A DNA stretch of 64,000 bases. It comes from Akanthomyces muscarius (taxonomy: Eukaryota; Ascomycota; Sordariomycetes; Hypocreales; Cordycipitaceae). Below are positions 6,519 through 27,200 of the stretch, in pieces; position 1 is the stretch's first letter, and each line of letters opens with the position of its first letter. The stretch lies in contig NC_079241.1 of assembly GCF_028009165.1 (NCBI RefSeq), positions 2,046,001-2,110,000 of the forward strand. Direction: 5' to 3'. The translations under genes were made by a program, and so were the position numbers. The notes under the pieces are model-generated. The model did no database searches and was not told the DNA's origin. It saw nothing but the letters and a program-made list of their open reading frames with translations.

Positions 6519-8134
6519 ATGTCTTCGGAAGAAAAAGTCATCGAAACAGTGGCATCAGCGCCCGCCGACCCCGACGTGGTTCGTGAACAGGCACGTCTTG
6601 ACAAGCTACTGAAAGAGCATGGCGTATGTAATGCGAAATCATCGGAAAATGTGGCGAGACTGACGGCTGTTTTGCTTGCAGGCTACGTGGGACTCTGCGC
6701 AGGATCCCCAGGACCCTTACAACTGGTCGACGTGGCGCAAGGTTTCCATTGCCCTAGTCGTGTCTCTCGGGCAGCTCATTACGCTCATGTCGGCGAGCAT
6801 GATGGCTGCTGCCCTGCCGCAAATTGGACACGACCTACACTTGAGTGACTCTGCCACACAAATCACATTTTCCATCTATATTCTTGGCCTCGCCTTTGCC
6901 CCGTTTCTGATAGCCGCGCTGTCTGAGATGTACGGCCGACGGCCAATATGGATCGCCAGCAATTTATTCTACATTTTCTGGAACGCATTGTGCCCGGTTG
7001 GACCCTCGGCTGGGCTCATGACCGTCAGCCGATTCCTGGCTGGGTCTGGTGCGAGCTGCGGCATCACGGTAAGAGAGAGCGGCTTTGACGATCCTCTCAG
7101 CCCGTCTACAGTTACTGACCTTGTGTTAGCTCACGGGCCCGATCCTGGCAGACATGTTCCGCGCGGAAGAGCGCGGGCGCTCTCTTGCTCTCGCGACGTT
7201 TCTCCCGTACATGGGGCCCGCGCTGGGGCCTATTGTGGGCGGTCTTACGTCGCAGCACTTGCCGTGGGCATGGCTATTCTGGATCCTTTCTATATTTGAC
7301 GCGGCCGTCGTGCTGTTGGGTTTCTTCACCGTCTCGGAGACATACACGCCGGTGCTCCTGGCGAGGAAAGCAGACGCGGCGGCGCGGGCTGGCGACGAGT
7401 CGACTGCTGTCGACAAGTGGACGTTGCAGTATGCTGGCGACTTCTACCGCGATCTACGAAGCAGGCTTGGGGCCAATCTGCTGCGGCCGCTGGCTCTCAT
7501 GGTCCAACGCCCAGCCGTGCAGGTCATTGCCCTCATCATGGCGCTCGATTTTGCCGTCTACTGTCTCCTGCTCTCCACGTACGCCACCCTATGGATTGAG
7601 CGCTACAACCAGTCTGAGACTGTCAGCAGCCTCAACTACATAGCCCTGGCTGTCGGAACTATCACGGCATCGCAAGCAGGTGGCCCGCTGATGGACTGGA
7701 TGTATGCCCGAATGAAGCGCCATGGCGAGCCTGTGCCTGAATTTCGCGTGCCGTTTCTAATTCCCGGCGTCATCATAATGCCTCTCGGTATGTTCCTCTA
7801 TGGGTGGGCAGCAGAGAAATACATGCACTGGATAGTCGTCGACGTGGGCACGGCCATTTTTGTGTGTGGTAGCTTTCTCATTGGCCAAGGCATGCTGGCC
7901 TATATGTTGGACGAGTTTAAGCACGCTGCTTCCGCCAACGCCGCAGCACGTATGCTCTCTAACATTCTCGGTTTTGTCTTTCCTATCTTTGCGCCATCCA
8001 TGTATAAGAGGCTGGGCTACGGGTGGGGGAATACGGTCTTGGGCCTCATCTGGGTAGTCCTGGGCTTCCCAATTCCTGTGCTGCTATGGGTTTATGGCGC
8101 CCGCCTGAGAGCCCTGGGGCGTCGTGATGAATGA
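6519..8134 (+). CDS. MFS transporter, DHA1 (drug:H+ antiporter-like) family
   Basis: Twelve-helix major facilitator, expected in the plasma membrane and exporting a small molecule by proton antiport. Three exons: 6519-6623, 6682-7068, 7130-8134. Both introns are phase 0 (58 and 61 nt; GTATGT and GTAAGA donors) and the protein is 498 aa. A short hydrophilic N-terminus is followed by DPYNWSTWRKVSIALVVSLG, the family entry into helix 1. Motif A appears as LSEMYGRRPIW between helices 2 and 3, and the helix 5 motif C region reads PYMGPALGPIVGG. A central cytosolic loop (about residues 230-275) separates the two six-helix halves. It is transcribed in the same direction as the peptidase at 9028 and could export or give resistance to the cluster product. 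Such transporters are common outside clusters too, so this link is inference. Confidence 0.9.
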
Positions 8135-9027: not shown

Positions 9028-11707
9028 ATGTATGCCGATGAACAATTTGAGATTGACTCGCGAATTGATTGGCACCGGCATCAACGGCACCTTGCGTCGT
9101 TCTTCAAACCTCTTCGGCTTACCGCTCTTTGCCTTGTTTCGCTAAGTGGCTGGATTGCTGCATTCTGGGGTGTTTTAAGTGGCCACAATGAGATTGTTGG
9201 CTTGAGCGATTTGTTGCGGAGGCCCGGTGTGCCGCAGGTCATCGACAACAGCCCAAGCATTGAGATGGGCCAGCATGGCGCGGAGCCTGCAAATAGCGTG
9301 TTGGTCAAGGGACTGTCAGTGGACGAGATTCTCGACAGCTCTTGGAAACCCGCAAAGCGCTCTTTCCGTTGGGTTGGAAATGGCGAAGAGGCGCTGCTCA
9401 TTGGCCACTCCAAGTCAAGCGCCGGCGAGTCTGAGTTCTCGGCACAGCGCGTTGTGGCAACTAGCGGCGGCGGACTGGAAAAGTTCCGGTTGGAGAATTT
9501 TATATCCAGCCTGAATGGCGCTATATCGTCTTCATGTATCTATGAGGGCCAAGAAGTGACGCCTGAAGATATCTGGGTGGGTGACGATGGACGGCATGCG
9601 CTGATCCTCTCAAACAAGACCCCAGAATGGCGTCGTTCTTACCGCGCTCTCTACTGGCTGCTAGACCTCAACAGCACTTCGCCCACTCTAGAGGCCCTGG
9701 ATCGCGATCATCCGCTAGAAGAAGCTCAGCTTGCCATTTTTTCCCCAACGGGGCAAAATGTGGCTTTTGTTCGTGACGGCAACATCTACCTTCGCCGGAC
9801 GTACAACGCAACAACTGTGCCCGTTACTGCCGACACTGACCCTTCGGTGCACAATGGCATTCCTGGCTGGGGCTACGAAGAGGAGGCTCTCGAGAGCAAC
9901 GTTGCGCTCTGGTGGTCCCCCGATGGCAGGCACTTGGTGTTTCTGCGCACCGACGAGTCCATGGTACAGATATACATGATGCATCTCTACACGGCGGCGG
10001 AACAAAATAGGCTATATACTCAGACTCGCCCGGTGCGGTATCCGAAACCGGGTTCTCCCAACCCCGTTGTGAATCTCCAGATCTACGACGTAGAGCGCGG
10101 TCGTCTTCTCAACATTGACTTGCCGGGTCAGCTCCCAGACGATGAGCGCATCATCTTCAGCGTCGTCTGGCTCACTGAACATCTGCTGCTCGTCAAGCAA
10201 ACTGACCGCGAGAGCTCTGTTTTGATGGTCTTCCTCATTGACCTGCAGCGTGCGGGAATGGCCACTGTGGAGGCCGAGTTGATTCGCACCGAGTCTGACT
10301 TGAAGGATTGCTGGGTCGAACCCATCCGCAAGGCTCTCCATTTTGTCCCAGCGGATCCGGCACGCGGTATCCCCGGCGACGGCTACATTGACATGGTTGT
10401 GCACGACGGCTATAATCACCTAGCTTACTTTACACCATTACGGGCATCAACGCCGTCCAAAATTCTTACCTCAGGCCAGTGGGAAGTCGTCGATGCCCCC
10501 ACGATGCTGGACGGAGACCATGGCTGGGTGTATTTTCTCGCGACGGTACCACAGCACCCGGATCAGCGCCATTTGTACCGTGCCAGTCTAGATGGCCGTT
10601 CCGTGATAGCGGTCACAGACGATACGCAGCCTGCCTACTACGATGTGTTATTTGCCAGCGGCGGCCGATATGCCGTGCTAGAATACAGGGGACCGGGCGT
10701 ACCACGCACATCCATCATTGTTTTGACGCAGAATGCCCCAGATATTGTAGCTGACACGGATCTAAATACCGCACTCGTGGTCAAGGTTCATGAGGCGGCA
10801 TCAATGCTGCCCGAGCGCCGATTTCATTACATGGATCTAGGTAGTGGCAGTCTAGCGCCCATCATGGAACTGCTCCCACCCAACTTTGATCCAGGGCGAA
10901 AATATCCGGTTATTTTCAGCCCGTATGGAGGGCCGGGGTCGCAAAGTGTAACGCAGCAATTTGCCGTCAACTTCGAGACGCTACTCGCTTCACGTGGCTA
11001 TGTCGTTGTCATTGTTGACGGGCGCGGCACAGGATTTAACGGCCGCGACACCCGCTGCGTTGTGCACGGCCGTCTTGGTCACTTTGAGGCACTCGATCAG
11101 ATCGCAGCCGGACGCCATTGGAAGACTAAGGACTATGTGGATTCAAACCGTATGGCAATCTGGGGCTGGAGCTTTGGCGGATTCCTGACTCTTAAGACAC
11201 TGGACATGGACGGCGGGCGCACCTTTGGCCTTGGCATTGCGGTCGCGCCTGTGACTGATTGGCGGCTCTATGGTGAGCGCTCCAACAAAAACTTGGCTGG
11301 GAACTGTCTCACAATTACTGACGAATTTCTAGATTCGCTCTTTACAGAGCGGCATATGCGCACTCCGAATCACAATGGGCCAGGGTACGATGAAACAGTC
11401 ATTGCCAACATGACAGCGCTTCGAGGCGTGCGACGTATACTCCTCGCGCACGGCACCGCCGACGACAACGTTCACGTTCAGAATACCCTGATGCTGGTTG
11501 ACAGACTAGTAGACGTCGGGGCAGTCAATTATGACATGATGTTGTTTCCGGATGCTGACCACGCCATTCGCTTCCACGGGGCGCGGAAAGTATTGTACCA
11601 GCGTAAGTAATGGACTCTGCCAATTGAGCATTCAGGAAGTATACGAAAGCTAATAATGCGTAGGAATTCTAGACTGGCTAGAAAAGAATATGCTATGGAA
11701 TTCATGA
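9028..11707 (+). CDS. Membrane dipeptidyl aminopeptidase (Ste13/Dap2/DPPIV-like, S9B)
   Basis: Type II membrane serine peptidase that removes N-terminal dipeptides (X-Ala or X-Pro in characterised relatives) in the Golgi or vacuole. Exons are 9028-11602 and 11664-11707; the 61-nt intron (GTAAGT...GCGTAG) is phase 1, and splicing converts a dead-end into the expected family C-terminus RILDWLEKN. Total 872 aa. A short basic cytosolic N-terminus precedes one transmembrane helix (about residues 30-48), then the beta-propeller with the YEEEALE double-Glu motif that anchors the substrate N-terminus (about 290), then the hydrolase domain: WGWSFGGF (nucleophile Ser), HGTADDNVH (Asp) and FPDADHAIRFH (His). 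All catalytic residues are intact. It sits directly upstream of a UstYa gene and 4 kb from the KR-repeat precursor. The Ste13 role in alpha-factor maturation makes it a natural trimming enzyme here, but vacuolar housekeeping DPAP cannot be excluded. Confidence 0.93.
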
Positions 11708-12453
11708 CGCCTGGGCGTGGACGGGGCGTTTCTCATATGCAGTCTCCCCAGAGAGCTAATTTCGCGACTACCGGCGTGTCCTCGAATAAAGTAGACAACA
11801 CTGCAACTCCTAGCGGCCTTGGAACCTTGTCCGCAATTACTCCCGTAAGAAGTGGTGAATCTGTTTTTCGTTTTAATTATTACAGCACGCCGTTGTCTTT
11901 GCTAGTGCCTACGTAAGTGGCATCCCGATGGGCTTGTCGTTTCTCGTGGCATCCTTTTGCACGCCCTCAGGCGCTAGTACCTGCTTCCAGACCATGATCT
12001 GTGGATTGATGAATATCCGCTTCAAATTTTCCAAGTACAGACTGGCTCTGTTTACTCTGCTCACTTCCGGATAATATGAAACTTGCTCACGCCGATTATT
12101 TGTAATTGCAGTCGGGTTCTGAGCCTAGTCTGTGATGGAGCAGACACTCTACTGCAGTGTCACATTGGTGCATATACTCTGCAGCTTTAGGGCGCTTCTG
12201 TGCATAGTTGCATTCTTAGCTTTGTATTCGCAAGGAACAGCTTTTGTACCAAAAACTACCTGGCCATAGCTGGAGGGGTTGACAGCGCTTAGCAGCCAGT
12301 AATGCACGGAAGCCAGCTTATTGAGTCCCATGGACATCAATTTTATGAAGGATTCGCTGTTGATCTTCGGCCGCGACCGTTGTATTGCTACACGGTCGCG
12401 CCCTCCTTTGCCGAATCAAACCACAAATCAAATTTCCAACATCATCGTTTGTC
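11708..12453. other. Intergenic region, promoter of first UstYa gene
   Basis: About 0.75 kb without a supported gene. The frame in front of the UstYa ATG is open from 12385 but only through a non-ATG codon. Nothing else recognisable. Confidence 0.5.
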
Positions 12454-13649
12454 ATGCCTACATTCCAAGAGAACGTCAAAGGCTGGTACTCTCGACTTTT
12501 CGACCACCAGCCAGTTCAATACGCCACCATGTACATGCCTAGCGGCAACTCATCGTCGCGCGACTCACTTGACGCAGCGAGTGATGATGTTGGCAAAGGA
12601 CTGATTGAAAAGGACAGATACTCTCACTTGCCGCTGTCAGCTCACCATGAGCCGTGGTGGAAGCGAACGACTGTTCTTGTCATCAGCCATATGGTTCTAC
12701 TCACTGTGTATGCTGCAGTTTTGTTTGTTGTAGTCAATAGCAGGACGAAAAGTGCAAGAATGGAGGGAATGCCAGTTTGTGAGTTAAATTCTTTTCCTCC
12801 ACATGGCAATGCTGACGTGTCTGAAGCACCTGCAATTTCTGCACTCAAATGGGAGAAGCACAAATTTTCGCTTGAGGATCGCATACAAGAAAAAGGCTCC
12901 TATTCAGGCAAGCCCAATGCCGAGCTGGATAAAGCCTGGCACGATCTTCTCAACTGTGAGCCTAGATGCAACGATAAATCAGAGCTTCTCAGCACACTAA
13001 TCATTCCACAGACGAAAACATCATCATTGAGCCAGAAATTATGGCGCACTACGACAGACTAGATGTTGGTGTCGCTGTTCCTGAAGGTGGTGGCTACCTT
13101 GGGACGCTCAATGTCTACCATGAGCTGCACTGCCTCAAACGACTACATCAATACATGTATCCCGACTATTACTTTGGCGACTTGACCAAGGAGCAGCATG
13201 AAATGAACCGACTCCACAATGGTAAGTCGATGCGTCCAATATTGATCGAGACGGGGGAAATGGATTGACAAGCTGGCAGAACACTGCATCGACTTCCTTC
13301 GCCAATCCTCCATGTGCCATGGCGACATCGGTTTGATTACATTTGAGTGGCACAATGACAGTCGGATTCCTGTTGCCAACGCCACTATGCACCAGTGTGT
13401 CAACTGGCAGGTACTGGATGACTGGACGCGCGCCCGCTCTGTCGACATGATGAAGCCGGGTTGGCTCGTACATCCACTTTTTGGTAAGTACAGCAGAAGA
13501 ATTTCCACTCCCAAGGAGAAAAGTTTTGAGCTTTAGGCTAGTTACTGATATCCACAACAGGTCTTGCGTATCCCGATGGCGAAGGAGACAAAATCGGCGC
13601 AGTTGATCCTCATGGACATCTAGCGCAAAGTCACGGCCATAGCAAATAA
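12454..13649 (+). CDS. UstYa-like (DUF3328) oxidase, copy 1
   Basis: Member of the fungal UstYa family, which catalyses oxidative cyclisation or side-chain chemistry on RiPP core peptides (known for ustiloxin, asperipin and phomopsin pathways). Four exons: 12454-12955, 13012-13221, 13280-13483, 13561-13649. All introns are phase 1 (56, 58, 58 and 77 nt range) and the protein is 334 aa. One N-terminal transmembrane helix (VLVISHMVLLTVYAAVLFVV, about residues 73-92) places the rest in the secretory lumen. The two family signatures are present: YHELHCLKRLH (HxxHC motif 1, start of exon 2 to its middle) and EHCIDFLRQSSMCHGD (motif 2, exon 3), then WHNDSRIP and a WLVHPLFG end. It runs toward a second UstYa gene and lies next to the repeat precursor. 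Function is well supported; the exact reaction is unknown. Confidence 0.93.
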
Positions 13650-14054
13650 AGGGAGCCAATTTTTTTGTGATTATTTAAATTACTTCTGAGAGTTTTCTGC
13701 ATTCAACGACCTTCTTTGCTTTTTAAACTGCAGTACCTGTCGGGCAGACTAACCGTCTATGACGGCAGCAAGGTGGCCATGACGTCTCGGTAGTGTTGCC
13801 ATTTCCATTTGCCAATTTGATAAAGCAGGCCACTTAAACTTTAATTTAATACTTACATGAGTGACTTTGAATGATGTTGCCATAAAGGTGGTTGTCGTGG
13901 AGTGTTTTCGGGTGGCCACATTGGCATGAGCAGTACACATTCAAGTACAGCATGAGATGAGTACTAGGGTTACAAAATAGAAAAACAAGGAAAGGCCACT
14001 TCGTTGCTCTCAAATATATACAAGATTCTTATTCATTATCAGAACAACGTCTAA
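13650..14054. other. Convergent 3' intergenic region between the two UstYa genes
   Basis: About 400 bp, A+T-richer than its surroundings, holding the 3' ends of both UstYa transcripts. No gene seen. Confidence 0.6.
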
Positions 14055-15222
14055 TCACGGGTCTAGCGGATACACCTTCGGACCGTGGGGCTCTGATATT
14101 CGCTTTCCGCCTGGGTACGCCGGGCCTATCGCCTCTATCAGCTGACGAAGCTCGTAGAAGACATGCAACATACCATATTTGGGATGAACCAAAAGATTCG
14201 GGGTGTAAATATCGATACGACGACTCTCTAGCCACTCTTCCAAAGACTCCCAGTCGCGGCATTGGTGCATCTGCATCCATGTGGGATTCGGGAGACGTGT
14301 CGCGTCATTCCAGTGATACGTGAAAATGGCTGTATCGGCGCGACACATTGCAGCCGATCGAAGAATGTCGATGCAATGTTCTCAAACTCATGTCAGAAAA
14401 CTGGCATACGGCACGGATTCTCGCACACGCACCTGTGTGGCCCGCCAATGACGTCCTCTCGGCTGAACTTTTCGCAGCGTGGTAGTGATCGGCAAAAACA
14501 GCCTCACGCACGAGTTTCTAGATCATGGGTTAATAGTTCTCTGAAGATGTTACAAAAACAAAATGCTGGCGGCGCACCAGACAATGGAGCTCGTGAAAAA
14601 CTGCCATCATACCCATGGATCCACCTCCTGAACTGAGAGGAATGGAAGTCGAATTCAATGCATGGAGTTCATCGTCCGTTATACGAATATTATGGTCTAT
14701 TTTTGGGAATAAGAGAAAATGTGAGTACGAGAGGCAGGGCGCTGGCTGTAGGGATTCACTCACGGCGTAGTAGTCGATACCAAGCCGCATCAACCTCGGG
14801 GGTTGTACTACCCACGTAAGGACTAGCCTTAATATCACTGGGTCTGTCATGAATGATCGTGATCTTATCTTTGACATGCTTCGCTATCGGGGCTAGGTGT
14901 GTCACAGTTAGATGTCATTCTTTGGTGACCGGGCGCCAGTCGACTCACTGTAAAGCACCGCCGAACCCTCACAGCCGTGTTGATGCAATATGAAGTAATT
15001 CCAGCAAAATATTCCGATACCAGTGTAAATCAGAAAAATTATAGTATGAATAAAGAGCGCACCTAGGTGTCTTAGTGCCCATGTTTTGCGGCGGTATGGA
15101 GGCTGCGCCGGGATAGGTCCATCGCAGCTGGGCGACTCTTCATCGCGGTACTCGCTGCAGAAGAATGCCTCAGATAATCTAGGGTCAGACTCAGACTCTG
15201 TAGTTGAGTTCTCCATGTTCAT
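14055..15222 (-). CDS. UstYa-like (DUF3328) oxidase, copy 2
   Basis: Second UstYa-family protein, expected to act with copy 1 on the precursor peptide in the secretory lumen. Six exons, read from high to low coordinate: 15222-14949, 14892-14764, 14696-14578, 14517-14433, 14380-14174, 14125-14055; 294 aa. The phases close at every junction and rebuild the family pattern across exon borders: TPIAKHVK after the first intron, PEVDAAWYRLLR, FHELHCLKLVREAV over the third intron (motif 1), EHCIDILRSAAMCRADTAIF (motif 2), YHWND and LLVHPKYG. A single transmembrane helix lies at about residues 56-80 (GALFIHTIIFLIYTGIGIF). Start chosen at the first of two nearby in-frame ATGs (15222; second at 15216). 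The last intron (48 nt) is a multiple of three and open, so retention is possible. Head of the gene faces the precursor gene across a shared 650-bp promoter region. Confidence 0.9.
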
Positions 15223-15870
15223 CTTAGTAGGAATCACGTAGACTGAAGAGCGAATTGCCAGTGGACGGTGGATGTCAGCGATGAAAGCAAGCTCGCGAGG
15301 AAGAAGTGCGACGTGACTGTGTGGAAAGAGAAAAGGGAATATTGTAATATCCGACACTTTTGCAAGCTTTCAAAGCCTTGAACAAAGAATGCCGGGCAGA
15401 CGAGCGTGGAGATGGTCGAGCAGCAAAATTCGAGGTATGGAGTGGGCACAGCCATGCACTGAAGCCATCGGCATGCAAAGTCACATTGTGCTAATACACA
15501 TATATGCAGAGAGACTGTGGTCTAATTTGATTGTCTAACTATGCATATGCGCTTCTTTGCAGTCTATTTCTGGCCTAGTGGTGGCCCGTTCCATGAAGCA
15601 GCAAGAACGGCCCTCGCACCTTGGCCGGTGGGTAATGATGTGCATACCACCTCGAACAGCCATGAGTTTGACTTAGCTCTAGATGTTATTGTGCACTGAA
15701 TCTGGCGATCGGTACTGAATCTGGTAGAATGTAGCTGGAATTCTGGATTGGCGGTTTATATAAATGCCGTATTGTCCACATAGAGCACATACCAGTCCTT
15801 TCCGAGCGGTAAATTACATTCACAAATTGCAACCAAATCTTTCCAAACTTGCCGAACTCAGATATTCAAT
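15223..15870. promoter_or_regulatory. Bidirectional promoter between UstYa copy 2 and the precursor gene
   Basis: The 648-bp space separates two divergent genes of the candidate cluster. On the plus side a good TATA element (TATATAAA, 15757-15764) sits 107 nt before the precursor ATG. Just upstream is an 11-bp direct repeat, ACTGAATCTGG, at 15695-15705 and 15714-15724, 19 bp apart, or nearly two helical turns. That spacing would suit a dimeric or doubled activator site. The TATA call is firm by sequence; the repeat as an operator is inference. Confidence 0.6.
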
Positions 15871-16350
15871 ATGCAGTTGTCTAACCTCGTCAATATTCTG
15901 GCCTTTGTCGCCGTCGTTGGAGCCTCTCCCGTCGCTTTGATTGCTCGTGGCGATGCTGATGCCGCCACTGCCTACAAAGCCGACAAGCGCTCTGATGCCG
16001 ACGCTGCCACTGCGTACAAAGCCGATAAGCGTTCTGACGCTGATACCGCCACTGCTTATAAGGCTGATAAGCGCTCCGATGCTGATGCCGCTACTGCTTA
16101 TAAAGCCGACAAGCGTTTTGATGCCGACGCTGCCACTGCGTACAAAGCCGATAAGCGTTCTGACGCTGATGCCGCCACTGCTTATAAGGCTGATAAGCGC
16201 TCCGATGCTGATGCCGCTACTGCGTACAAAGCCGATAAGCGTTCTGATGCTGATGCTGCTACTGCCTACAAAGCCGACAAACGTTCTGAGGCGGAGCCCG
16301 TTTACCGTCGCTCAGATGCGGATGCCGCTACCGCCTACCGGGCCGACTAA
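15871..16350 (+). CDS. Repeat precursor peptide of a KEX2-processed RiPP (dikaritin-type)
   Basis: Secreted 159-aa precursor, intronless in its coding part. Residues 1-19 form a signal peptide (MQLSNLVNILAFVAVVGA, cleavage likely before SPV), then a short leader to residue 26. Residues 27-138 are eight exact-length 14-residue units of the form SDADAATAYKADKR; unit 1 begins with G, unit 5 with F, unit 3 has Thr for Ala at position 5. Then comes a degenerate nine-residue unit, SEAEPVYRR, and a terminal unit SDADAATAYRAD ending at the stop. Lys-Arg (once Arg-Arg) follows each unit, as in Kex2 substrates, and every unit has exactly one Tyr, the residue usually modified in UstYa pathways. There is no Cys or Trp, which argues against an alpha-pheromone precursor. 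Flanked by two UstYa genes, an oligopeptide transporter and peptidases. Product structure is unknown. Confidence 0.88.
   Translation: MQLSNLVNILAFVAVVGASPVALIARGDADAATAYKADKRSDADAATAYKADKRSDADTATAYKADKRSDADAATAYKADKRFDADAATAYKADKRSDADAATAYKADKRSDADAATAYKADKRSDADAATAYKADKRSEAEPVYRRSDADAATAYRAD
15949..16284 (+). repeat. Eight in-frame 42-bp tandem repeats in the precursor gene
   Basis: Units begin at 15949, 15991, 16033, 16075, 16117, 16159, 16201 and 16243, each 42 bp with no indel. Differences between units are mostly synonymous third-position changes, so the amino-acid unit is conserved beyond what recent DNA duplication alone would give. Confidence 0.95.
15991..16242 (+). repeat. 126-bp higher-order duplication (three repeat units copied as a block)
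   Basis: Units 2-3-4 (15991-16116) and 5-6-7 (16117-16242) match as whole blocks with 5 differences in 126 bp by my count. Two are replacement changes (Ser to Phe at the start of unit 5; Thr versus Ala in unit 3) and three are silent. This shows array growth by a three-unit step. Confidence 0.85.
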
Positions 16351-16946
16351 GCATTCCAATGGTAAGCAGTCACTGTTTCTCATTCTCATATAGATTGGCC
16401 AGTTGCTGACATATTTCTATAGCTACGGGGCTACGTCTTGAGCGTTGTGGCTGAGAGGCTTCTCGTTGGGCCTATGGACTTCGCGCAGCCCCATGGACGT
16501 TGTGGAAGGTCGATCGGTGAAAGGCACCGGGACCGCAGACGAACTATGGCAATGTGTACTCTTACAGTAAATGGTTGCCTATGGTGACTTCAATGTGCGT
16601 ATCCGGCACGTGTGGATATCCTTTCAACAAGGATAGCCGTGGGCTATAGACGGTGACAATGCAGTTGATTACATCAGCCTTGACTCTGTGCATGAAGCTA
16701 ATGCAGTGTAATTCGAATAAGTGTTACTATTTGCGTAGCGTTACGAGTGCGTTACATTGCTTAATTGATGGCCTGCAGTTGTGAGGCCAGGGAGCGCGTG
16801 TGGTGGTCCTTTTTGACATTGGCCACTTGTCTTTGCTTAGGTGGAGATGATAGTTTGCGGTCCTGGCCTGGAACATTTATGAATGTAATTTGCAAGTAGT
16901 ACGCGGTATTTAAATTGATACCAGAGTATGTGTGCACGAATAAAAC
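16351..16946. other. 3' region of the precursor gene, with a possible 3'-UTR intron
   Basis: No coding gene. A GTAAGC donor at 16362 and a TCTATAG acceptor ending at 16422, with a GCTGAC branch-like site at 16404-16409, would make a 61-nt intron 11 nt after the stop codon. The rest lies between convergent genes. Confidence 0.4.
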
Positions 16947-19499
16947 TTAGCATTGATCACCCGGGCATCCTACCCGTGTACCCCAGCCTTCGCCTCCCCA
17001 CCCGACCGCAATCATCAGTGCTCCATTGATTATTCCCCCAATTCCTTCACCGGCTATCAATCCCGCGGCTACTGAGGAGAGGTAGTTTTCATATGAAACC
17101 CTTTGCCTGTGCCTCCAAATGCGCCCCGCCAGCGCCCCGCCCAGCATCGCCAGGCCATATGGGGGTGATGGCATCGTAAAGGCCAGTCCCATGATCATCA
17201 TGTTGGGGAAATAAGGCTTGAGAGAGCTCTTTATAATATTTCGAACCAGAGCCACTGCAGCTCCGAGGACTGTGAACCACACGGCGAATGAAATACTGGT
17301 GCCGGGGACGGCGCTCTCGGTGCCGACCGAGGTGGCCACAGCTACCGCTCGCCAAGTCGAGATTGACGGTCCACCAAATTCGCAGCGGTGAACGGAGACA
17401 GTCTGGTTACTGCCAGAGCGACTTTGATTGACGTCGTTGTGTTGAATAATACATGGGTATGCGGCGATGAAAAGATTAAAAAGCATCGGAGCTGCAAGAG
17501 AGGCGAATAGCGTCCCAATTGCTTGACCTAGAAATTGAGTTGCGGCAGGGGTTCGAAGAAGATATCCGACGCGAAAGTCGCCCATCAAGTCTGCCAGTGA
17601 GTTTGTTAGCCCAATGCCAGGAGATGAGACCTCTGTGTGGAAAACTGGCGTACCGCAAGCTTGGCTTGCACTCATGTTGGCCAAGGCGCCGCCGAGGAGA
17701 TTGAGTCGCTGCTGCAGGGTTAGATCGAGTCCTGAATTGCCGTGGCTGATACTCAAAATAATTTGCGACACTGTCGATACTGCCGTCAAGGGTGTGGTAT
17801 CTACACTCAGGTAATGGGTCAGAAGATGATAAAACCCTGGTACCAAACGGAGCAGTACCTGTTGCGCCAGTCGCCTGTATTGCGACGAGCGAAAGGGGAA
17901 ACGTTAAAGCTAGTGCAAGCAGAGTCTTGAGTACCGAAATACCAAAGGCAAACTTCATGCCAATGATAGCGAATATTCCCGCAAGGAAGAGTCCCGGGGC
18001 CCAGGAAAAAGCAGAAATACTGTGGCGGCTCGAATATCGTTCGCCATTGTCACCATTTGGTAGAGCAGCATAACTACTCGACCGTATTGCTGTTTCGGTG
18101 CGGGTAAATAGACCACTTGAATAAAGCATTGAAATCAACTGGTACAACATATCTATGGTGATTCCTTGGTTAGATAATGGCTCTTTAGAGAGCAGGTAAC
18201 ATTCATACCAGTCAAAGAGACTGCAAGCATACACGCCACGCCTGGCCATAGCAGCCAGTATCTCGGGCTGGGAGAATTAGCGTTGGCGTACTCTGCCGAC
18301 ATTGACGTATACGAATATAATCCCTCCCAGTACGGCTCCGCCGATACTGGTAAACCGAACGCGATTCGCTGCGAGACAACATAAGGCCCAACAACCGCCC
18401 TGTTGAGAATGAGTGCGGGCTAGACGGTCGGCGGTTCTGGAGACTCACCATGCCAAGACTGAGCCAGCAAAAAAGGAGGCTGCTATATTTATGTCGACTA
18501 GCATTCCCGATCCTATCATAGCCGGCGTCCATTCTATGAACCAGCCCCAGCTCTCTGCCGCCATGGCGACGTCTGGAAAGAGGTTCGCTGCACGAGCCCA
18601 CGTAAAAATATGCCACTCCTACTCAGTGCGTTAGTCCAATGCATACGTGCTGCAAGTGCAACAAACGATTACTTACCCAAAGAACTCCAGTGGCTAATGG
18701 TGATAGTATTCGTAGCGTGCCGGCGGCAGCAAAGGCCCAAATTGTGACGCGCAGCTGCTTTACTGCCGTGGACGCTGAACTAGCCGCCGAGTGCAAGGCC
18801 CGAATGGTAAGTGCCGTCACAGTGGATGATGGGAAAACGAGATTCAGGTCCCGGGCCGACTTTTTCTCGATGAAGAATTTTCTCACTGTAAAACAAACGT
18901 CAGCTACGGGTCGGTTTATCAAACGATGGGATATCCCGCTCACAAGGCACAACCGAAAGCAGGCCGAAATACCCCCCCGCGACCGTCAGCAGCAGGATAT
19001 GCAAAAGATCTTTGGAGGGAGTATCAAGTAGCCCAAGTTGGTATGTAGCCGGTATGGCGGAGATGAAAGTGCTGGACAAGCCAGCTGACGCGGTCGCAAT
19101 GGTCTGTACAATGTTATTCTGGTGTGGGCCAAATGTGGCAGGAGAGCGATTTTTGAAAATAGCGAATCCAACAACAGACTGCAGCGTGAAACAGTTAGCG
19201 ACATACTAGTGACTCATTTTCTCATATAAAGTGAAATGTACCCCCAGAAGGTTTGCAGATGATGTCCAGCCTGTCTTCAGTCCAAGATAGATGTTGGACC
19301 CATTGACCATTATGCCACAGATGACGCCAACCAAAATAGAGGGAAGCGTCACGAGCGTCCCGCTTGATTCTGGAAACGTCGTTTCAGGGAATGGCGTAAA
19401 CTTGTCAGTCCAAGGTTCCATTTCTTTATCCATGTCGCCAGCGATAGAATTGCTACTTTCTGATGCAGGATATTGCACTTCATTGTTGTCGTGGGCCAT
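16947..19499 (-). CDS. OPT-family oligopeptide (or metal-chelate) transporter
   Basis: Polytopic proton-coupled transporter of the oligopeptide transporter superfamily, closer to the group with the LxTGW entry helix. Seven exons, high to low: 19499-19242, 19178-18944, 18885-18677, 18618-18449, 18399-18209, 18152-17859, 17800-16947; introns 49-63 nt; 736 aa, with phases closing throughout. Diagnostic stretches: NGSNIYLGLKTGW (about residue 65), VVPLRKFFIEK built across intron 2, LVFPSSTVTAL, FFAGSVLAWGVVGP across intron 4, IQATGATD across intron 6, and the C-terminal AAGLIAGEGIGGIINGAL. About 14-16 hydrophobic segments. Some OPT proteins take up small peptides; others take up siderophore-like chelates. 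Its place between the precursor and a protease suggests peptide movement in this cluster, which is inference. Confidence 0.9.
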
Positions 19500-20096
19500 T
19501 GTTGCAAAGCCAGTTCAATCTCGACACAGCCTTGCCCGCAGAATAGAGGAATAATACCAGCTCCCCTGGCTCCTGGTTTGGGGAATATTGGAAGCTATAG
19601 AGATCTTTTCCCATTCTTCGCGGTCTTGTCGGCGGCTTGCCCGTTGTGGTCAGGGCTACGATGACCTCGCATACGCCATGCAGATCCGCAATGGCGGGTT
19701 GACAGCACAGAAGCTCTGGATGCCAATCCACATTAAAATACTCAATTTACAACGCATACTGCTACACAGTAGTTCTGATGCCCAATTTTCTGTCAACACT
19801 CCGCTCAACTGGCGTATTCTAGACGTGAGCGATGTTCCCGTAGTGTATTGAAGAAAGAGACCGTTATTAGTAGTTCCAGTGGGGAATTGCACCAGGCTTT
19901 ATAGAAGCAGTCATTGATCGTATGGCGCAGTGTACTCAAGGGCATGCAAGGTTCTAGTAATAGCGCATGGAGTACACATATCATGAGAGAGAAATTGCTA
20001 TTGACTGTACACCGCAGCGCTTTAATTGAACATTTCCAAAGGATTCCAATGAACAATACGCAACTACTGCAAAAATCCCATTTGACCAAGTACCCA
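19500..20096. other. Intergenic region, promoter of the OPT gene and 3' end of the protease gene
   Basis: About 600 bp between two minus-strand genes. An open minus-strand frame runs through it from the protease gene only because the true splice to the short last exon is ignored. No independent gene supported. Confidence 0.6.
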
Positions 20097-22163
20097 TCAT
20101 ATACCTGGCAAATAATACCAAGGTCGAGTAGCTCGAAACCGCGATGCCAGCGCCGCTTCCTTGAGTTTCGGGAACCACTACCGTGAAGAGTGTTAGTTTC
20201 AGCACAAATGTAGATAAAAAGGCCGTGTCTGCTCACGGGTGTTCCAAGTCCCGTAGCTGGATCCCAACCCTCAGTCGCCGGAAAGCCGGAGGTATTGCAG
20301 CCCATGTTGGAACCGACTTTGACGTCCCGAAAAGCCGATGCACCAGCTGAATACAGCCATGGGTTGAGAAAGCCAAGCGGGGGCCGGCCGGCGTCTATCA
20401 GCGCATCATTGACAAGAGCGACGATGGCGGCAACAGTTGGCGTCGACGCGCTCGTCCCATCCTGAAGGTGCGCCACCGCGCCCCAAAGCACCGAGAAGTG
20501 ATACCCCATGGCTGCAATGTCTGGGTAAGCGCGCCCTGCATGGTTAAACAGGCCGCTGTAATCTTCCTGCTCCGGGTCTTCCTCTACTCTGCGATCGAAC
20601 TCGGCAAGATACGACTCGACGGCCGCGCGCTGGTACGCCGGCCGCGCAAAGACATCGCTGAAGCCCCCGCCAGACGCATAACTACTACGGGCGTCAAAGG
20701 CCACCATCTCGGGCTCGATGAAGCGCGTGGCCCCTACAGCGGTGACATAGGGGCAGCTGGCGGGAAAGCTGGGCATGAACCGGCGGCGCTTCTCGTCCAG
20801 CGTCACGCACTGCTTGGTGCGGCCGACGCCGTAGTCACCGCTCGCCACGAGGACGGACACGCCTCGGGCCGCAAGCTGCGCGAACTCGGCGCACACGCGG
20901 CGCGCGTACTCGGGCGGCACGAGCTTTTCGTCTTCCGCGTAGGAGATCGATATCACAGACGGCGGGTTCTCGACGCTCTGCATGTGCCTCAGCCACGCCA
21001 GGTACGGCTCGTTGGTGTTCTTGGTGTGCATACTGAGCGGACGGAAGGGCGGCTTGCCACCCACGTTGTACATGACCAGCGGCGTAGGCCAGCTGATGCC
21101 GAGCATCGTCTGCGCGTCGAGCGCGCCCTCGTATCCTTTTTGGTCCTTATTCTGCTGCGGTGTGTTGGGCGTCTGCTGGTCGTCGCCGCCGCTCACCAGC
21201 TCCACGGAAAAGGCAGCCTCGGCATGCGCCGCCGCCGCGTCTGGCCGGTACCGCGCAAGATACAGTGCCACATCGGAGCGGTTTGCTACCTGGCCCAGGA
21301 AGTTGACCATGCCCATCGAGTTCTTGCTGCTGGCGGCGGAGATTTGCGGCGAGTAGCCCCAGGTGCCGTAGAGCACCCGCAGGCACAGGGGGGAGATGGC
21401 AAGACGGTTGCAGGCTTCGGCTGGCGTGGGGTTCGCGGACAGCGCATCCTCGGCCGGGATGTCCAGATGTCCGCGGTCGAGCCAGTCTTCCTCGACCAGC
21501 TCTTCGTGTGTCGGCACCCGACCCTCAGTCTCCCAGAGCGGTGCCGGAGCGCCGTATTTGAGCTGCGCAGTCGGAAGGATGAATACGTTGGTAGGCGCGA
21601 TGACTTCAACGACGTCTAATAGATGTGTCGGCAGCGACCATTCCAGAGTACGGATAGCAATAGTACCGGATGGGATGTGCTCAAATGTCCAGTACTCTGT
21701 CTGGAGTAGATGCTCAAGGCATTTTATTGGCATGCAAATCTCCAGCCAGTCACCCGTCGGAGATTTTGACACGTTGTGGGCCTTCAGGCCTCCCGACTCA
21801 GACAGCCATTCCAGAACGCAGCGGACATGGTCTGGTTCAGGTCGCAGCAGCTTCTGGATTTGCCTAGTTGAGAGGTGCTTGCCGTATTCTGGGTGTGTAG
21901 GAGTAGAAACTATGACCTGTGAGCTCCTGTGTAGATTTGGAATTAGGTGGTGGTCACCTACCCTGAAGCAGCCTTTGTTCAAAGGACGCGAAACCGTGCT
22001 GCACGAGGCCAATAGACACATCGACTAGATCATTCGGGTACGCTCGCCGAATCCGTTTCCATTCAGAAGGCTCTTGTATCAAACTCTTCCGCTGGTAGTT
22101 TGGCAGGCCAGTGACACCTGCGACGGCAAGCAGCGGCACGAATATGCCCGTTACCAATTTCAT
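20097..22163 (-). CDS. Secreted sedolisin-type serine peptidase (S53; tripeptidyl-peptidase-like)
   Basis: Secreted acid-acting serine-carboxyl peptidase. Exons, high to low: 22163-21962, 21909-20237, 20177-20097; introns of 52 and 59 nt, phases 1 and 0; 651 aa. Signal peptide MKLVTGIFVPLLAVAGVTG, then an activation prodomain (STPTHPEYGKHLS, the usual pro-kumamolisin mark, appears exactly when intron 1 is removed). Catalytic pieces: EGALDAQTML (Glu and Asp of the triad), ASGDYGVG (oxyanion Asp) and DGTSASTP (nucleophile Ser). The calcium loop near the end reads FRDVKVGSN and EGWDPATGLGTP, continued by WFPKLKEAA in exon 3 as expected. No key residue is missing. Divergent from the heme oxidoreductase gene and tandem with the OPT gene. 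It could process the repeat peptide outside the cell or simply provide nutrition; location favours the first idea weakly. Confidence 0.92.
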
Positions 22164-22609
22164 TGTACATTCGGCGTAATTGCAAAAACATGTCGAATGC
22201 TTCCGGGGGCTCTGAATAGAAGACAAAATGTTGAGCCTCTATTCCCATTCCCGGGGTATTGGCGTACGGCGATTGACTGCTGAGGCGGGACTGAGTGTAT
22301 CGTCACCCTGTAAGCTCATGCGCAGTCACCCAAAGCGTCTGTGCATACTAAGTTGACCGTGCTTTTGCAGGGGGACTGACTGTGCAGGGCAACTACGCAG
22401 CCTTCTTTGCAACGACTAGGATTTTCTTCTTCGCGTAAGACGACATGAGCTACGTAACAATCTTGGCGCTTTCTGAAAACTAATGTTCTGACTATGCCGT
22501 CTTTCAGTGTCCCTGTTAAGCCCACCTCTGGTTCGACTTTGAATGGCGATGGATTGGTGTTCCCCTTAACCTTGCTTCCTTAAATACCAATTTTTGCGAA
22601 AAATGCACA
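22164..22609. promoter_or_regulatory. Divergent promoter between the sedolisin and the DOMON-b561 gene
   Basis: The 446-bp shared upstream region of two divergent genes. No clear TATA box was seen on either side apart from an A+T-rich stretch (TTAAATACCAA) about 30 bp before the plus-strand ATG. Shared regulation is inferred from geometry only. Confidence 0.4.
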
Positions 22610-24034
22610 ATGTCGACTAGATCATCAACTCGTTTGCATCACTTATTCACTGCGATACTCGCAAGTTCTTCAGTTCAGGCCACCCCCGCTCAATATTGCC
22701 GATTTGGCCATGGAGCAGGTGAAGTGGACTTTTGCCTCGGCGTTTCGACGCACCGCAACTCTTCCACAAATTACCACGACGTTTATCTCAGCCTATCCGT
22801 TACGCGCGATTCCGACACTGGCTGGACGGCAGTTGGGGCGGGCTCCTTGATGGTCGGCGCGCTCATGTTCATCGTGTACGGAGATCCAGACGGGGAGGCA
22901 TCGCCGGTGCTGAGCGTTCGGACTGTCCAAGGCCATCAGCAGCCTCGTCTGGTCAGCAAAGCGGGCATGGGCGGAGCAGACCTGCGTGTATTGCAGGCGC
23001 GCTGGATGCAGACGACGCCATCTGCACAATACGAACAGTATGCCCTGTCAGCCAGCTACCGTCCACAGTCCGCACGCTTCTCGATTGTGTGCTACTCCTG
23101 TGAGCGCTGGCCGGGCACACCCTTCACCCCCGATGCAGCCTCCCAGCCATGGATCTGGGCGTGGAACAGCCAGCAGCAGTTCGAGGTGTATAGTTTCGAC
23201 GCTGACTTGGATATGCATGCGCACGGCGCCGGACAGGGCGGCTGGGGTTGCTTTTACATGAACATGGCGCAAGCCCTCACTCAACATGGGGACTATCTAC
23301 CTTCATTCCCGCCGTTGCGACCCGCGGTATTGCATGTAGGCGCCTCTGACACCCCGATAGGATTCAAAGGCGTCACGGCCGCAGTCGACAGATTCTGGCG
23401 CAAGATCCTGACCACATCACCACATCAACGTGCTCATGGGGTTCTGATGGCAAGCAGCATCTTGGCTCTCTTCCCTGCCGGCATCTTGGCGCTGAGGAGC
23501 GGTTCGCCACACGCATTCATGTACCACTGGCTGTTGCAGAGCCTGGCAACAATGTGTATGCTGTTCGGGGTAGGCCTGGGTGTCTTGCTGGTCCGCACGC
23601 ATGGCCACAATGCTGCTGACCATCATATAATCAAATCGAAGCTTGCAAGCAGTCTCTTTGGGAACTACGGCCATAGCAAGCGGCACGACGAGAGCTCGGC
23701 GGCTGCTGCTGCCATGTTTGCCGCACATCAGTGGCTAGGTGGAATTTTTGTGAGCTTTGTCATGTTGCAAATCCTCTTGGGCTGGTGGCATCACGTCATC
23801 TTTGTGCGTATTCGAGCAAGGACTTGGGTATCCCACGTTCACATTTGGCTTGGGAGGACCAGTATGCTTGAAGGTTCCATGAATCTGCTGCTCGGTATGG
23901 CTCTGGCAAGCTACAGCATGGCTAGTATCAGCGTCGCAGCAGTGTTTATTGTTTTGGAGACACTGGCAATTGCGTTCTGGATAAGGCGTAAGCGCGCCAT
24001 GCTTCATAGCGCGGCAGGCGACTACGGAGACTAA
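22610..24034 (+). CDS. DOMON/CDH-type cytochrome fused to cytochrome b561 (transmembrane electron carrier)
   Basis: Intronless 474-aa membrane oxidoreductase. A signal peptide (to about residue 25) precedes a cellobiose-dehydrogenase-like cytochrome/DOMON domain (about 26-225). Probable axial heme ligands are the Met in SLMVGALMF and the His in LDMHAHGAG. Then come five to six transmembrane helices of a cytochrome b561 core, with conserved His in RAHGVLMA, MYHWLLQS, AAHQWLGG and HVHIWLGR, the usual four-His set for two hemes. Such proteins move electrons across a membrane to reduce ferric iron, ascorbate-type radicals or lumenal enzymes. Next to the putative RiPP genes it might feed or drain electrons for the UstYa oxidation, but members of this family are common outside clusters, so this is only a suggestion. 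Confidence 0.88.
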   Translation: MSTRSSTRLHHLFTAILASSSVQATPAQYCRFGHGAGEVDFCLGVSTHRNSSTNYHDVYLSLSVTRDSDTGWTAVGAGSLMVGALMFIVYGDPDGEASPVLSVRTVQGHQQPRLVSKAGMGGADLRVLQARWMQTTPSAQYEQYALSASYRPQSARFSIVCYSCERWPGTPFTPDAASQPWIWAWNSQQQFEVYSFDADLDMHAHGAGQGGWGCFYMNMAQALTQHGDYLPSFPPLRPAVLHVGASDTPIGFKGVTAAVDRFWRKILTTSPHQRAHGVLMASSILALFPAGILALRSGSPHAFMYHWLLQSLATMCMLFGVGLGVLLVRTHGHNAADHHIIKSKLASSLFGNYGHSKRHDESSAAAAAMFAAHQWLGGIFVSFVMLQILLGWWHHVIFVRIRARTWVSHVHIWLGRTSMLEGSMNLLLGMALASYSMASISVAAVFIVLETLAIAFWIRRKRAMLHSAAGDYGD

Positions 24035-24217: not shown

Positions 24218-27200
24218 CTATCGCTTTAAATTGTTCTTCATCTTCTGCTCATATTCCTCATTTGTAGCTCGCGTCGTCTCAGACTTGATATTGTCGTTGA
24301 TGTCCCGATCTGCTGACTCGACATCTAAGTCTGTCACCTCGTCACTGCCATCATCCCCTTTGAGCCCAGGATCCCTTTCTTCGCCAAATCTGTGTGCAAG
24401 CATATCCGCCACCCATTGCTCAAACTTTTTGGGTTCCGCGATCCTCTCCAGCACGGCCGTCGGCATGTCCTCTACTTTGTACTTGGCTCCAGCCCTAACC
24501 AGCTCGCCTACCACATGGGCCATCTTCCACGCCTCCTTCTCCATTGTCGACGTCATGTAAATCGGCGTCGTCGGCCCATCATCAAGATTGTACACCTCGT
24601 TGACGTCCGCGCCGTGATTGACCAGCACCTTGACAACGCTTGCATTCGCGTGCTGAATCGCCCCCACCAACGGCGACTGGCCATGCTTGTTTTTCGTGTC
24701 CAGACGGGCGCCCGCCTCCAAGAGCCGCTGCAAAATCTTGCTTCTGCTGGACTCGGCTGCGAACCACACCGGCGTGTTCAGGTCGGTATCGGTGGCGTTC
24801 ACATTTGCTCCCAGGCTCAGCAACATCTCGAGTGGTTCGCTAATCGTCTCCTCATTTTCAATTCGTCCGGCAATCAAGTGAATCAGGGGTGTCGAGCGCG
24901 ACCTCTTACCCGCTGATCGTTGGTCCACATCCATGCCCTGTCTCGAAAGCCACTCGATAGCCTCTGTATTTCCATGTTCCGCGGCAACATGCATACTATC
25001 GGCGGCGGCGAGGTCCACCCCATGCTTGCTCACGAGCTCGAGAACTTCCACACTAGCTTTTTCAGTAATGGCATCTCTCCAAGCAGAGAGAATAGCGTTT
25101 TTAGTAGACCATTCAGGCGCAGAGTTGTCCGAGCCAGAGATAGCCTTGAGGAGCATGGCCAGGACTTCGCATTGTGTCTTCTCCGCCGCTATCCCCAGTG
25201 CCTTGGACTCCGTAATGTCGGCGCCCGAATTCAGAAGTGCCCTAGTTATCTTTAGATTGCCCCTGGAAGCGGCTATTGCGAGCGGATAGCCCTGCAATTC
25301 TTTTTCTGATTGCCATGCGGGAGGCAGATTTGGGTCCGCGTGGTGATCCAGAAGCAGTTGCACAATGTCCAATCTCTCTGCCATCACCGCGGCCTGCAAA
25401 GGCCTCGTATAGTTGTGTCCCATCACATTCGGGTCTGCTCCATGTTTCAGAAGAGCCTCAATGACAGCCACATGGCGGCCTGCGGTGGCAAGAAGCAGCA
25501 GGCTTTCGCCCATAAGGTTGGTGGCGTTAGCGTCAGCCCGTCCGTCTGCCAGCCACTCATTCAGCGAGTCACCGAGGCCGAGCAAAGCGGCACCAATTAC
25601 AGGGTCGCCGCTAGGGCGAAGTTTGGTGCGAGGAAATTGGCTTTTCAGACCACCGGCACTTTCCGGATCAGCCATTGTGAGATTGAGACCACCCAGACCA
25701 AAGGCTGTCCACGCTCGGTAGGCAATGCTGGATGACCCTGGCTCACCCAAGAATTCCTTCAAGAGGGAATCCATCAAGCCAAGAAGACTTTCGTGTCGCT
25801 CCGCTCTTCTGATATGAAGTGACCAGGCTTCTGATGCGTATTGTGTCCAGCGTTCCAACGCGCTGTAGCGGAAAATGTCGAGGTACGCATCTAACTCAAC
25901 GCTTGTGCACGCGGATTCATACTCGTGGTAATGGATATCCTTCAGAGACACAAAGCATCTGAAAGGAGGTGTCGCAAAATTATCCAGGGCTGAATCACCG
26001 TGGCTATAGGCTGCGTCATATTCTCCAGCATTGACACTCTCAAGCTCATCGTCCGAATCGTGCCAAACTACTCGACGGTAGAAATCCTTGTCGATGACCT
26101 TTACGTTGAGAACCGGACATTCTTCAAAGTCCCTCTCTTCATTGTAGTCTCCCTTTTCTTCGTCACTGTAGTCTTCGCCCTCATCATCTTTGCTCTTTAA
26201 TTCACCTTGCACCAGCTCATCCCGGCTAAGGCGAAGGATCGTCCGTAGACATATACACGCCACGAATGCATTTGCCTCCGCAATAGACCAGTGATGTAGT
26301 TCCAGATATTCTCGAACTGACAAGTGAGAGAAGCGACATATTGCATTCGAGTAGGATGGCTTTGAGGCCGTTTCATCCACAACTCTCATTCGGTATTTGC
26401 TGGATGGGACGTCGGAATACTGAACTTTTGGCTTCTTGGCCTCTTTGTCGTCTTCTATCTCTTGCTGCTCTGCAGCTGCGGAAGCTTCGGGCAGTCCATC
26501 GGCAACGACCATAAAATTGTGGCAGGCGTCACGAAGGTAGGCAATGTCAACGTCCGGGTCCAGGCAGAATGTCTCGCTAGGAAACTGCGTCGCAGCAATC
26601 ACCATCTCCTCTGGGCTGAGAGGTCTCCATGAACACATGAGAATCTTGAAAACAGCGAGAGCCACATCCCGCTTGCTCCCGGCTTGCGCGTTGATGTCGC
26701 TGAATATCTTGTGATAGGCAGCCTCGAGGCCCCGTGGGAGCTTGTCCAAGTAAGCAGAAATATCCTTGTTTCTGTTGAGCTTCAAGAGCTCGTCGATGTG
26801 CAAGGCAGCCCACTGGAACATCCCTTGGCTTTTCTCTTGGAAGGTACGCAGAACATCTTGTCGAACTTTCTTCGTCAACTTCGTCCGGCAAAATTCGCTC
26901 TGTTCCATTTTCTTCAGGACAAACTTCTCAATGTCGGACTGGTTGTCGTTGGCAGTAACTTCAAGATGGCCACGAGTCTGGTAACGATCTCTCAAGTCCT
27001 GATCCTGCCGACTTGCGATGTAGATCTTGACGGTTTGCGTCGACTTGGCCACAATGTCGTCCAGAGTGTCCATCAGCACATATCGTGTGTCGCGGTCGCA
27101 CTCATCCAGACCATCGATGGCAATGGTGGTCTGGGAGTGATCCCTTGTTAGCTGTAGAAGGAGGCTATGGCATTCCTCGGTGGTGAGCCGGTCCCTGGAA

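Follow-up and report, generated by a model that had tools for sequence, protein, structure and literature searches.

By 2022, reported products of the dikaritin type of ribosomally synthesized and post-translationally modified peptide (RiPP) numbered only five, compared with no fewer than 838 types of Kex2-repeat precursor, and 22% of the Kex2-repeat precursor genes sit beside UstYa homologues (PMC10512285; this and the other papers are cited for individual passages). One repeat, DADAATXYV[A/V]D, was described by Le Marquer et al. in 2019 as motif 3, a new conserved Kex2-repeat core, and is an orphan (PMC6339444); no product for this family appeared among the papers listed in the literature searches, most of them open access. 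Here we analyzed a 64,000-nucleotide stretch (the window; C1:2046001-2110000) of Akanthomyces muscarius, a biocontrol fungus that kills insects (PMC10323777). The analysis covers this one genome, of 36.19 Mb in 12 contigs. The sequence supports an uncharacterised Kex2-repeat/UstYa (dikaritin-type) cluster at positions 9028-24034 of the window, with a variant of the orphan repeat in its precursor. What is new is a second, diverged cluster in the same genome (contig C11), which gives the orphan family a defined gene set. The gene types that an earlier annotation of the window (the original prediction) had assigned to the interval are all present: a dipeptidyl aminopeptidase (DPAP), two UstYa proteins, the precursor, an OPT transporter, a sedolisin and a DOMON-b561 protein.

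Among the described systems, the ustiloxin and phomopsin clusters share with this locus a repeat precursor, Kex2 sites, a Tyr-containing core and UstYa proteins. They differ in that both contain a tyrosinase, S41 peptidases are conserved in dikaritin clusters, and the ustiloxin cluster has a flavin-containing monooxygenase (FMO), a pyridoxal phosphate (PLP) enzyme and a methyltransferase (PMC6514808); their core, EDYXI (PMC6339444), is also unlike the one found here. A genome search with PF00264 gave 13 exon hits for tyrosinase, none of them near the window cluster (the nearest, at 1,217 kb on C1, is >800 kb away) and none closer than 440 kb to the C11 cluster; on this ground, a cluster of the ustiloxin/phomopsin type was rejected. 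The original prediction had seen no P450, FMO, tyrosinase or methyltransferase. The genome-wide search confirms this for the tyrosinase; the other three are without a match among the open reading frames (ORFs) scanned, no search by name having been made, and no S41 peptidase turned up among the same ORFs, with no search aimed at S41. Elsewhere on the contig (C1:1215416-1217898), a UstYa hit lies ~1.6 kb from a tyrosinase, the pairing expected in an ustiloxin- or phomopsin-type cluster. The asperipin-2a cluster (aprA, aprY, aprT, aprR) combines a precursor, a UstYa protein and a transporter, likewise without a tyrosinase, but is described with only four genes, including a single UstYa gene and an isoflavone-reductase-like gene, and with the core FYYTGY (PMC6514808). 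The epichloecyclin cluster also pairs a repeat precursor, gigA, with a DUF3328 protein, but consists of four genes, the others being kexB and one of unknown function (PMC7317419).

The precursor gene (15871-16350, + strand) is open throughout, without an intron, and encodes 159 amino acids. After a hydrophobic N-terminus (residues 3-27; the signal peptide is judged from hydropathy only), the protein contains nine 12-residue units of the form xDAD[AT]ATAY[KR]AD. Eight of these are followed by KR, a segment SEAEPVY-RR comes next, and the ninth unit ends the protein; the repeat unit is SDADAATAYKAD-KR. Tandem Repeats Finder (TRF) reported the array (15949-16347, + strand) as 8.0 copies of 42 bp. 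Among the nine units, the third codon position varies in 12 of the 12 codons, the first in 3 and the second in 2. Because TRF finds the copies and the variation is concentrated at third positions, the repeats are not a product of chance: the units have drifted silently while their peptide was conserved, as expected of a real gene. With its predicted signal peptide and similar repeats separated by KR or RR, the protein has the makeup of a Kex2-processed repeat protein (KEP). The public model of the gene (LMH87_005652, P0001) is 100% identical across the 57% of the precursor that aligns; it leaves the ORF within the repeats, loses part of them and ends in another frame.

Two protein searches with the precursor, each scoring about 8,000 candidates chosen for sharing the most sequence words, yielded 6 relatives under a limit of E<=0.01 and 16 under E<=1, or 17 distinct relatives including P0001, from Onygenales, Beauveria, Colletotrichum and Xylariales among others. 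DADAATxY is found in 11 of the 17 with variable flanks (AYKAD, AYVVD, MYVVD, RYVVD, SYHSD, AYTAD, AYPVG and others); the core is MYVVD in Blastomyces, RYVVD in Histoplasma and Emmonsia, SYHSD in Beauveria asiatica, AYTAD in Colletotrichum and AYPVG in Nemania, and SYVRD in Beauveria mimosiformis, a match at E 0.1 only. The window precursor thus shares with the published orphan family a KR-separated DADAAT-x-Y unit behind a signal peptide, but has KA after the Tyr where the printed motif has V[A/V], which the C11 core (VV) follows; the passages describing the family name no product and do not describe its further genes. Type G-6/#13 of Umemura et al. (2020) is probably the same family: it comprises 49 proteins from 43 strains and 19 genera, among them Cordyceps, Torrubiella, Beauveria, Histoplasma, Blastomyces and Emmonsia, and a DUF3328 gene lies within 15 genes in 46 of the 49 cases (PMC7329392). 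Some observations limit the extent of the family: 6 of the 17 relatives are without DADAATxY (for example DSATNYVVD in Penicillium and DADTAYTKEVSD in Ustulina), the Beauveria protein P0017 matches at E 0.1 only, and type #13 was equated by its genera and Tyr/Asp content, not by its repeat sequence. The unit that the original prediction found unlike the cores it knew is thus a variant, AYKAD, within a published family, and the possibly new product class it proposed is only partly right and not supported in that form, as the repeat belongs to an orphan family already catalogued (PMC6339444, probably PMC7329392); the family is orphan, not undescribed.

In Beauveria asiatica, UstYa and the precursor are probably adjacent too, because P0006 is a single predicted gene joining UstYa and DADAAT-precursor sequence. 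The two Beauveria copies P0006 and P0017 look decayed or mispredicted, with KP for KR and NDNAATA, hinting at pathway loss in this genus. The non-repeat segment SEAEPVY-RR (16285-16311), near the C-terminus, has counterparts ending in EPVYRR in 3 of the 17 relatives (P0006; P0013, Colletotrichum tabaci; P0008, Nemania serpens) and none in the C11 precursor. It is a second conserved Kex2-type fragment and may be a second peptide.

We searched the genome for DADAATxY with a degenerate DNA pattern and obtained 16 matches, eight in the window precursor and eight at C11:851162-851521, against 0 for a control pattern; a protein search with the precursor hit the same two places and no other. The C11 cluster (832.9-856.3 kb) consists, in order, of OPT(-), UstYa(-), sedolisin(-), UstYa(+), sedolisin(-), DOMON-b561(+), a bZIP-like gene(-), UstYa(-), the precursor(+, nine units, core AYVVD), a Zn2Cys6 regulator(+) and MFS(+). 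When seven window proteins or pieces were queried genome-wide, the best match outside the window fell within this interval for five: the precursor, DOMON-b561 (46%, 268 bits vs 155 for the next), sedolisin (two best other matches, 53% and 45%, 465 and 462 vs 261 bits), the MFS piece (C11:855323-856303; 47%, 327 vs 253 bits) and the C-terminal piece of OPT (47%, 135 bits). In both clusters, UstYa(-) is divergent from the precursor(+), and sedolisin(-) from DOMON-b561(+). The original prediction had drawn the bZIP and MFS genes into the cluster by inference, and the second cluster supports this, with the best other match of the MFS piece and a bZIP-like gene in C11. The basic region is common to the two bZIP genes (tblastn, 24% over 197 amino acids, 7e-15), and the C11 gene was recognised by these letters; pieces of neither gene gave a Pfam match.

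Not all of the comparisons favor C11 equally. For UstYa2 and bZIP the comparison was confined to C11, the margin of the OPT piece over its next match (122 bits) is narrow, and the strongest single exon match of UstYa1 is at C5:2844962 (120 bits); the gene at C11:836 kb matches UstYa1 over three exons (112, 89 and 46 bits) and comes out best when the exons are summed. Nevertheless, a gene set kept in two diverged copies supports the idea that the genes work together, and is the strongest evidence for it. A widely spread orphan family thereby gains a defined gene set backed by an internal duplicate, and one insect-biocontrol fungus offers two natural core variants, AYKAD and AYVVD.

The two UstYa (DUF3328) genes of the cluster are UstYa1 (12454-13649, + strand, five exons) and UstYa2 (14055-15222, - strand, six exons); UstYa2 is divergent from the precursor gene. 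Hand splicing at GT-AG sites gave proteins with PF11807 scores of 193.8 and 166.7 bits (cut-off 25), and each contains HxxHC twice, HELHC and HNEHC in UstYa1 and HELHC and HTEHC in UstYa2, with the second motif formed across an intron. Thus, a UstYa gene with both motifs adjoins the precursor, as in dikaritin clusters. The HxxHC(x)nHxxHC arrangement is that of the copper DUF3328 enzymes CctR, ApnU and AprY, and the single membrane helix agrees with the description of CctR, which is copper- and dioxygen-dependent and requires electrons from a donor that the 2025 paper leaves as a hypothesis (PMC12435403). The genome contains approximately 32 UstYa genes in 22 loci, as counted from exon-wise hits. 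At three of the other loci (L002, L004, L007), further Kex2-repeat precursors lie next to UstYa genes, with the units IEYTHPAGGVTDKR, EGWNDTHDRAGDKR and APKGDILYNNQAGWGKR. Beauveria bassiana up-regulates a dipeptidyl aminopeptidase gene and three ustYa genes in insects (PMC12142624); neither these data nor those of PMC10334655 could be tied to this cluster.

Taken together, we assign a probability of roughly 80% to the reading of the locus as a secreted-pathway RiPP cluster, on the strength of gene content and sequence comparison. In such a pathway, as the architecture of the precursor suggests, cleavage behind each KR would be the work of Kex2 in the Golgi, and the KR would then be stripped by a Kex1-type carboxypeptidase. 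The UstYa pair, judging from its family, would oxidise the conserved tyrosine and/or its neighbours by cross-linking, hydroxylation or desaturation, with DADAAT serving as a recognition and spacer part, and the DOMON-b561 protein would supply the UstYa copper, on the lumenal side, with electrons. The OPT transporter (about 16947-19499, - strand, PF03169, several introns) and the MFS transporter (6519-8134, + strand; PF07690 on the 7130-8131 piece, start by eye, intron structure approximate) would move peptides, and the bZIP-like transcription factor (3532-5134, + strand; basic region NRLAQRRRR, exon structure approximate) would regulate the set. The C11 cluster would make the AYVVD counterpart.

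N-terminal trimming could be shared by two peptidases. The sedolisin (S53; about 20200-22163, - strand, 3' end approximate) has a pro-domain and aligned catalytic E/D, D and S residues, its nearest solved structure is tripeptidyl-peptidase 1, and by sequence it is TPP1-like. As the unit starts with S-D-A-D-A-A-T, a tripeptidyl peptidase could take SDA and then DAA, leaving TAYKAD. Calculated [M+H]+ values for the predicted linear peptides are 668.3250 for TAYKAD (666.3093 at -2 H), 567.2773 for AYKAD (565.2616), 739.3621 for ATAYKAD (737.3464) and 1198.5222 for SDADAATAYKAD; the C11 counterparts TAYVVD and AYVVD come to 667.3297 and 566.2820. The Ste13/DPP4-type DPAP (9028-11707, + strand) comprises an ORF at 9028-11610 and a last small exon at 11664-11707 after an intron at 11603-11663, read by eye. 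It combines DPPIV_N and Peptidase_S9 domains with the catalytic Ser, Asp and His motifs (GWSFGGF, TADDNVH, DADH) and EE, has one hydrophobic helix near its N-terminus, and its best solved relatives are DPP4. This membrane enzyme would also trim the N-terminus in the window cluster, so that a short core, for example (T)AYKAD, is left. DPP4-type enzymes prefer Ala or Pro at the second place. Two points weaken the role of the DPAP: alone it cannot start trimming, because the N-terminal SD is no X-Ala/X-Pro site, and it is not essential to the gene set, as the C11 cluster has no copy and its two close paralogues lie on C4 and C6. The DPAP as a fixed part of the set was accordingly rejected. The sedolisin fits the main trimmer because it, and not the DPAP, is common to both clusters; the DPAP would be a refinement of the AYKAD cluster. 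The peptidases that trim ustiloxin were called unknown in a 2019 review (PMC6514808), and the cluster now supplies candidates for such a trimming role, as well as a candidate electron donor for DUF3328 copper enzymes.

This donor, the DOMON-b561 protein (22610-24034, + strand, divergent from the sedolisin gene), models as a cytochrome of the cellobiose dehydrogenase (CDH) type fused to cytochrome b561, the b561 fold match being near the margin for helical bundles. Of its b561 histidines, H277, H374 and H412 are invariant and H307 is >=90% conserved in 34 sequences. The CDH cytochrome domain and cytochrome b561 thus occur here in one polypeptide, within a RiPP-type cluster. Both domain folds resemble proteins that feed copper enzymes: CDH acts in this way for copper polysaccharide monooxygenases, and b561 for dopamine beta-hydroxylase. 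In the proposed topology, which draws on these analogies, the b561 half may take cytosolic electrons and the CDH-type half may pass them to lumenal copper.

All four genes of the window type lie within 13 kb of UstYa hits, as opposed to none of the four other CDH-cytochrome genes within 100 kb, in a division that is our own, made by match strength (in the others, the b561-like part is in a separate frame). For comparison, the regions up to 15 kb from a UstYa hit make up 1.95% of the genome. The four cases are not independent, as the window gene was the query, the C11 cluster is paralogous and a third gene, at C1:2044663-2045835, lies in the same region, ~0.2 kb beyond the left window edge; only the pair at C2:2855344-2857433, where 329 bp separate the gene from a UstYa hit, is a clean independent case. 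A simple repeat script found no repeat precursor near this C2:2855 kb pair or to the left of the window. Window-type genes thus occur at the two RiPP clusters and at one further UstYa locus, where no repeat gene turned up.

Because the DUF3328 copper enzymes need electrons and the four window-type genes lie near UstYa, the DOMON-b561 protein is a candidate for the donor that is a hypothesis in the case of CctR. From co-location, fold and expected topology, we tentatively propose, with more doubt than confidence, that it is a dedicated reductase of copper-dependent UstYa/DUF3328 enzymes and that its loci represent a UstYa branch with its own redox partner. No fused UstYa-DOMON protein was found, as none of the 102 DOMON-b561 relatives (0.55-1.75x the query length) is listed with PF11807. 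Among the papers listed from the mostly open-access literature, none links b561 or DOMON to DUF3328/UstYa. For the alternative that the protein reduces iron or copper for metal uptake and has no part in UstYa catalysis, we see even odds: the relatives include some annotated as 'iron reductase domain protein', titles and abstract openings connect plant CYBDOM proteins with ferric reduction, and the asperipin-2a cluster, as described, has four genes and no DOMON-b561 (PMC6514808), whereas the exclusive proximity of the window type to UstYa and the resemblance to donors of copper enzymes argue against it. This alternative concerns the redox partner and leaves the rest of the pathway as it is.

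Two further explanations concern the cluster as a whole. Fungi also use S53, DPP4 and OPT proteins to digest protein outside the cell and to take up peptides, and the locus might thus place two functions side by side: a set for peptide scavenging (secreted sedolisin, DPP4, OPT importer) and a small RiPP set (precursor, UstYa). We consider this improbable. S53 genes are numerous elsewhere in the genome (22 exon-wise Pro-kuma hits), but in C11 the precursor is again accompanied by sedolisin and OPT as best matches, OPT narrowly, and the DPAP, with its hydrophobic N-terminal helix, is closer to the paralogue in a 912-amino-acid frame (42%) than to that in a 797-amino-acid frame (37%).

The core of alpha-pheromones contains Trp/Cys, and an alpha-pheromone precursor was rejected outright, the translated precursor being without either residue. 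The broader idea that the repeat gene encodes an unmodified secreted signalling peptide, pheromone-like and Ste13-trimmed, with the UstYa proteins serving something else, is hardly likely either. A Ste13-like peptidase does lie in the neighbourhood, and alpha-pheromone precursors share the Kex2/Ste13 architecture (PMC6339444). However, the units lack Trp and Cys, the precursor adjoins UstYa in both clusters and probably in Beauveria asiatica, the C11 cluster has no DPAP, and repeat proteins of the mating-factor or pheromone kind are, apart from three, reported to lack DUF3328 neighbours almost throughout (PMC7329392).

Within the probable RiPP cluster, the intergenic gaps are at most about 1.4 kb. 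The window was studied as far right as 27.5 kb, and a gene for a NACHT-like domain (NPHP3_N) with ankyrin repeats (24218-27487, - strand), 183 bp from the DOMON-b561 gene, is likely to be the right border. On the other side, the cluster or its redox genes may extend left past the window edge.

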